Made by a program: the position numbers and the translations under genes. This document shows, piece by piece, positions 47,263 through 47,963 of a DNA stretch of 64,000 bases; position 1 is the stretch's first letter; each line of letters opens with the position of its first letter. Under the pieces are notes generated by a model. It saw nothing but the letters and a program-made list of their open reading frames with translations. It searched no databases and was not told the origin of the DNA. The DNA is from a virus, in IMG/VR virus record IMGVR_UViG_3300027881_000007, positions 1 through 64,000 of that record; one strand, given 5' to 3'.

Positions 47263-47655
47263 TCATTGAGGTCCATACTTGGGTAATGTGATCCAGGGTT
47301 TTTTGTATTCAGTCTTGCTAAAACTAACCTTCTCTGAATAATAACCATTTGATTCACCTAACCATCTAATGGTCACAGAACCTATAATGGTTGACAACTT
47401 ATAGAATGTCCATGTAAAACTCTCACTACCATACTCCACAGAGTGGTCGTGCTTCTCATTACTAACAACCTCTTCGGCCAACAGTATGGGGTTACCAATT
47501 AAATCCTTTAAATCTCCAACAACATCCACGATGTTGACGGTTTCACATCAGTCTTTGGCATGATACATCTTATATATATCACCTTCTTCGGTGGTAAATG
47601 TCATCTCCGTACTGCCTACATTACCATTGATCTCCTTTATGATCTCATTTTTCAT
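47263..47655 (-). CDS. Possible UGA-readthrough (selenocysteine-type) gene, or gene broken by one stop
   Basis: ATG at 47655 overlaps the preceding stop (ATGA). The frame runs 35 codons ([12 protein letters not shown] ... YHAKD), meets TGA at 47550-47548, then continues in the same frame through [20 protein letters not shown] to a stop at 47263, 130 sense codons in all. The whole reads like one conserved phage protein family I recall (DUF7448-like) in which D-C-C-E-S-V follows the H-x-x-D segment; here the first Cys codon is TGA. The only restart codon, GTG at 47529, has no ribosome site. A 17-base perfect hairpin with a GTG loop (47520-47536) begins 11 bases after the TGA, as in E. coli fdhF. 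A simple nonsense mutation remains possible. Confidence 0.55.
47520..47536 (-). promoter_or_regulatory. Candidate bacterial SECIS hairpin
   Basis: Minus strand CAACATC-GTG-GATGTTG: seven perfect pairs and a three-base loop starting with G, beginning 11 bases after an in-frame UGA. Distance, stem length and loop G meet the usual bacterial SECIS rules; no bulged U is visible in the upper stem. Confidence 0.45.
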
Positions 47656-47963
47656 TTCTTCGAACCTTGCCACTTGTCGTCCCTCCGCCTCAATTCAAAT
47701 TGATACTCATTACCGTCCCTGAACTCCAGCCTGTGGATACACAACTCCCACCATAGTAGTTTAATGGACTTCCATTTTAGTTTGATTGTCATCTTCAACT
47801 CCTTGAACTCTTCCATCAACTTAATGTATTCGTCTGCAGCTATCTTATCTATAATATAAGTAGAACTCATGAGGCTGTGTCTTTCTAATCTCTGTATGAT
47901 ATTGTTCTTCATCCTTTCGATGACTCTATCTATTGCATCATTCCATCCTTTGTAATAGTCCAT
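47652..47963 (-). CDS. Small protein of unknown function
   Basis: 103 residues, basic and helical (AIDRVIERMKNNIIQRLERH; YIKLMEEFKELKMTIKLKWK), ending FELRRRDDKWQG. Its stop overlaps the start of the UGA-containing gene, so the two are translationally coupled. Not recognised. Confidence 0.55.
   Translation of the reverse strand: MDYYKGWNDAIDRVIERMKNNIIQRLERHSLMSSTYIIDKIAADEYIKLMEEFKELKMTIKLKWKSIKLLWWELCIHRLEFRDGNEYQFELRRRDDKWQGSKK

Follow-up and report, generated by a model that had tools for sequence, protein, structure and literature searches.

Whether a UGA codon in the middle of a phage gene ends the protein or is read as an amino acid is the question raised by a locus in the window, a stretch of 64,000 nucleotides that forms positions 1 to 64,000 of the virus record IMGVR_UViG_3300027881_000007. 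Between positions 47655 and 47263 on the minus strand, direct reading reveals a single 130-codon frame broken solely by a TGA at codon 36: an open stretch (47655-47551) is followed by the TGA (47550-47548), by TGT (47547-47545), which encodes Cys37, and by a reopened frame that runs to a TGA stop at 47265-47263. The ATG at 47655 overlaps, in the bases ATGA (47652-47655, minus strand), the stop codon of the gene that precedes it (47652-47963); translational coupling at this overlap is likely, and translation of the interrupted gene would probably start in this way. An earlier note on this DNA had described both the two collinear frames, parted only by TGA and followed by TGT, and the overlapping start, and these observations hold. 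The note took the pattern to be that of selenocysteine (Sec), and in the DUF7448 protein of the window gene the UGA at codon 36 is very likely read as Sec.

If the UGA were a true stop, a 35-residue N-terminal peptide and/or a protein restarted at the GTG at 47529 would have to be functional. Such a start codon is indeed present and is the only one available to the downstream half, as had been noted earlier. However, this GTG lies within the loop of a hairpin, no ribosome site is evident at it, and the restart product would be devoid of the conserved N-terminal strands and of the H-x-[QK]-D-U-C-E motif. Moreover, termination leaves the identical split in six other genes (see below) unexplained and is therefore extremely improbable.

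The protein obtained by reading through the UGA belongs to the DUF7448 family: it matches Pfam PF24240 with 85.8 bits (E=3e-24), far above the curated cut-off of 27 bits, and phrog_2650 with E=1.3e-40, and a single profile match covers both flanks of the UGA. In a tblastn search, the window protein matched 104 phage records. When relatives were read codon by codon, the codon aligned to the UGA was TGT or TGC in 82 of 82, and in an alignment of 47 sequences both cysteines of the D-C-C-E motif were invariant. The alignment of homologues that the earlier note had advised thus confirms its statement that relatives carry two cysteines where the window gene has UGA followed by Cys. Sec would be inserted in place of the first invariant Cys of DUF7448, giving a D-U-C-E motif in which Sec and the invariant Cys37 form a vicinal pair.

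The same exchange recurs in other phages. A pattern search of IMG/VR in which UGA replaced the first Cys of the motif returned nine matches, six of which are DUF7448 genes; a looser pattern added one more gene, L121, and a third variant nothing further, so the search looks saturated. Besides the window, seven contigs (L084, L085, L086, L089, L090, L091 and L121) carry six distinct UGA genes, which brings the number of distinct UGA DUF7448 genes to seven. The six other proteins share 42-55% identity with the window protein. Every UGA gene has its own start and its own stop, is open on both sides of the UGA and retains the conserved C-terminal residues. Pattern scans for the UGA motif in 84,980 cellular genomes gave 0 and 5 matches, and all five were due to chance.

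A nonsense mutation, a decaying gene or a sequencing or assembly error could in principle have turned TGT or TGC into TGA, for which one substitution is enough; in the window gene, 14 further codons likewise lie one step from TGA. Since the scans queried chosen codons only, the argument is carried by the control scans. UGA at the second Cys of the motif gave 22 matches in the IMG/VR pattern scan, none of them DUF7448, and a change from TGG to TGA at the conserved Trp98 gave a single match that is not DUF7448. Among 133 distinct Cys-type homologues, no internal stop was found in 13,625 aligned codons; the lone stop flagged in this set sits just 5' of the likely ATG start of its gene. Error or nonsense mutation is far too rare to produce seven matches at one codon given these controls. 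In addition, one UGA gene is present in two assemblies: L085 and L086 represent the same phage DNA, with the same UGA and 8.4 kb that align with no mismatch and one gap. Furthermore, the invariant residues 3' of the UGA are all retained. Error, decay and chance nonsense mutation are already largely refuted as explanations and very unlikely. The recurrence of UGA at the same Cys in seven distinct phage genes, with none at the neighbouring Cys, instead supports the Sec pattern proposed earlier: in-frame UGA stands where homologues have Cys, coding continues 3', and background nonsense does not explain the recurrence, as is expected of a bacterial-type selenoprotein gene.

The phages that carry UGA are dissimilar. 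The window belongs to a 113-kb virus record (G000) that encodes T4-like gp23 and gp20, a tail sheath domain and a family B DNA polymerase. The records that hold its capsid relatives (65-94% identity) reach 312 kb, and the window record may therefore be part of a larger phage. Between 5773 and 20749, the window also contains three ORFs of great length (1373, 1520 and 2070 aa) with LVIVD, SPRY and DUF1349 domains, possibly tail or adhesion proteins. DUF7448 was detectable in none of 20 capsid relatives, several of whose records are fragments, which suggests that it is an accessory gene. The UGA contigs range from 27 to 47% GC, and their carriers differ in phage hallmark genes, which include T4-like gp23/gp20 with PolB, terminases and portals, PolA, and a RecA/UvsX-like protein. 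This diversity suggests an accessory gene with wide horizontal spread among phages. When the contigs with UGA-type DUF7448 were inspected whole (L161-L174), they were seen to represent phages whose replication and packaging genes differ greatly. In a protein tree of low resolution, the UGA genes are scattered, with at least six changes, but their placement in one clade is not rejected (p-AU 0.45), so that the tree does not demonstrate independent origins. It is possible that Cys and Sec were swapped repeatedly as DUF7448 moved among phages; in some phages, a takeover or redox function may thereby depend on host selenium status and Sec machinery.

Some bacteria are known to have variant tRNAs that insert Cys at Sec UGA codons, and the UGA might be decoded by such a tRNA-Cys variant. 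It might also be decoded as Trp or Gly under an alternative code, and alternative codes are known in phages (PMC9523058). However, all carrier contigs use TGA as a normal stop: it terminates 49 of the 171 ORFs predicted in the window record and serves as a stop in each other UGA contig, which bears out the statement in the earlier note that genome-wide recoding is not the explanation. In addition, the in-frame UGA is restricted to one invariant Cys, a position at which Trp or Gly would disrupt the motif. Decoding as an ordinary amino acid is thus highly improbable, although a Cys-inserting tRNA variant may operate in a given host, and genome-wide recoding is very unlikely. Sec is the sole explanation found that covers the recurrent UGA at one Cys, the clean neighbouring Cys, the stop-free family, the intact downstream coding and the normal use of UGA as a stop.

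No tRNA genes were found in the 113-kb record. The earlier note had proposed looking for the Sec machinery genes selA, selB, selC and selD in the phage or its likely host; for tRNA-Sec (selC), nothing was found above the cut-off in any record searched, including the contigs that carry a UGA gene, and decoding must therefore come from the host. Matches below the cut-off from L090, L121 and capsid-relative records were rejected; where ARAGORN was applied to them, it called ordinary tRNAs (e.g., Leu) among them. In the capsid relatives G012, G018 and G027, many such sub-cut-off matches to the tRNA-Sec model suggest large arrays of tRNA genes, in contrast to the tRNA-free window record. When 395 genomes from a single phylum were searched for a host with DUF7448 and the capsid protein as queries, no match was obtained, an uninformative result. 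It is very probable that these phages borrow host machinery, presumably SelA, SelB, SelC and SelD, to put selenium into one protein. In particular, a host SelB-type factor with Sec-tRNA would recognize a hairpin just 3' of the UGA.

Such a hairpin is present in the window gene. Its core (CAACATC-GTG-GATGTTG, 47536-47520, minus strand) is a perfect 7-bp stem with a GUG loop that begins 11 nt after the UGA, exactly as first described, and it extends by three further pairs across a T/T mismatch to 47540-47516. Published criteria for bacterial SECIS elements (PMC13188914) ask for a loop of 3-9 nt, a stem of 4-16 bp, G in the first two loop positions, a distance of 16-37 nt between UGA and loop, and an MFE of at most -7.5. 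The window hairpin, for which the earlier note had recommended a comparison with a bacterial SECIS model, agrees with all of them (loop GUG of 3 nt beginning with G, stem of 7 bp plus 3, 18 nt, -8.6 kcal/mol), though the criteria are not specific. Its folding energy is better than that of 60 out of 60 synonymous recodings. The hairpin is real and of the right form. However, under a flexible criterion an equal hairpin is found at 7% of the coding positions of this genome, and the weight given to it earlier was too high. By itself, it exceeds chance only marginally.

The hairpins of the seven UGA genes are heterogeneous. Those of L084, L089 and L121 also pass the criteria; in L085 and L091, the hairpins at the equivalent place are too weak, and L090 has a strong hairpin with no G in the first two loop positions, so that three of the seven genes miss at least one criterion. 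The criteria are passed by 17 of 55 Cys homologues (p=0.17 for the difference in pass rate), and the pass rate alone therefore cannot discriminate. Raw folding energy does not differ between UGA and Cys genes either (p=0.32). When measured against synonymous recoding, the mean z-score is -2.7 for UGA genes and -0.3 for Cys genes (p=0.0024), and against the coding background the hairpins of the UGA genes give a combined p=0.00024, with L090 entered as 1. L121 and L089 have a hairpin in common in which one pair is compensated (CCG/CGG vs CCA/UGG). An Rfam scan around the UGA returned only snoRNA matches, which were attributed to chance. At the level of sequence, the UGA genes have stronger hairpins than their Cys homologues: in the group as a whole, the hairpins exceed what the protein demands, and that of the window is consistent with this and not decisive alone.

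The function of the protein can be approached through its fold and its motif. The AlphaFold model of the window protein (pLDDT 84) is mainly beta, and a fold search of the PDB gave no significant match. Its viral relatives by predicted fold are phage DUF7448 proteins and proteins of giant viruses (Mimivirus, Hokovirus, Tupanvirus), one of them named DUF7448. No paper on DUF7448 was found in the literature searched. Cys-type DUF7448 genes are unannotated at L001:980-1333 (Escherichia phage vB_EcoS-26175II) and L002:962-1357 (Bacillus phage Goe3), which indicates that public records undercount the family. Sec in bacteria is reported to evolve from redox-active Cys (PMC1794560). Judged from the residues, a vicinal Sec-Cys pair, which may be redox-active, beside conserved His, Gln, Asp and Glu suggests a thiol/selenol redox function, with metal binding as the alternative.

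Poxviruses encode glutathione peroxidase selenoproteins and offer a precedent for a virus-encoded selenoprotein that depends on host Sec machinery. They differ in that the poxvirus gene relies on a eukaryotic SECIS in the 3'-UTR and encodes a known enzyme, whereas bacterial-type decoding is proposed here for a protein without known function. Selenoproteins of bacteria (PMC13188914; Sargasso Sea selenoproteome, PMC1088965) likewise have UGA at the Cys of homologues and, directly 3' within the coding sequence, a hairpin whose apical loop contains G and lies 16-37 nt from the UGA; in contrast to these, the window gene is phage-borne and belongs to a family whose hairpins vary and in part fall short of the criteria. 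Phages are mentioned in neither source, and the main text of the first, a 2026 review of the prokaryotic selenoproteome, contains none of the words phage, virus or viral. The nearest earlier report concerns Basilisk-like Bacillus phages, for which tRNA-Sec has been described (PMC6145125), which hints similarly at phage engagement with Sec decoding; the accessible part of that report mentions no selenoprotein gene, whereas here putative selenoprotein genes occur and no tRNA-Sec was found above the cut-off. No phage selenoproteins were found in the literature searched, in which few subscription journals are covered, and earlier reports may exist.

The window gene thus belongs with other DUF7448/phrog_2650 members by Pfam, PHROGs and predicted fold, and differs from them in that its first invariant Cys is encoded by UGA. 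The best verdict is that these genes constitute a new phage-borne selenoprotein family whose function is probably thiol/selenol redox; phage-encoded selenoproteins appear to be undescribed in the literature searched. If this is true, standard gene callers cut short members of a phage family, and selenium would be a determinant of some phage infections. Moreover, Sec would mark the likely catalytic residue of the widespread DUF7448, which by predicted fold is also present in giant viruses, and would thereby provide a direct lead to the function of this family.
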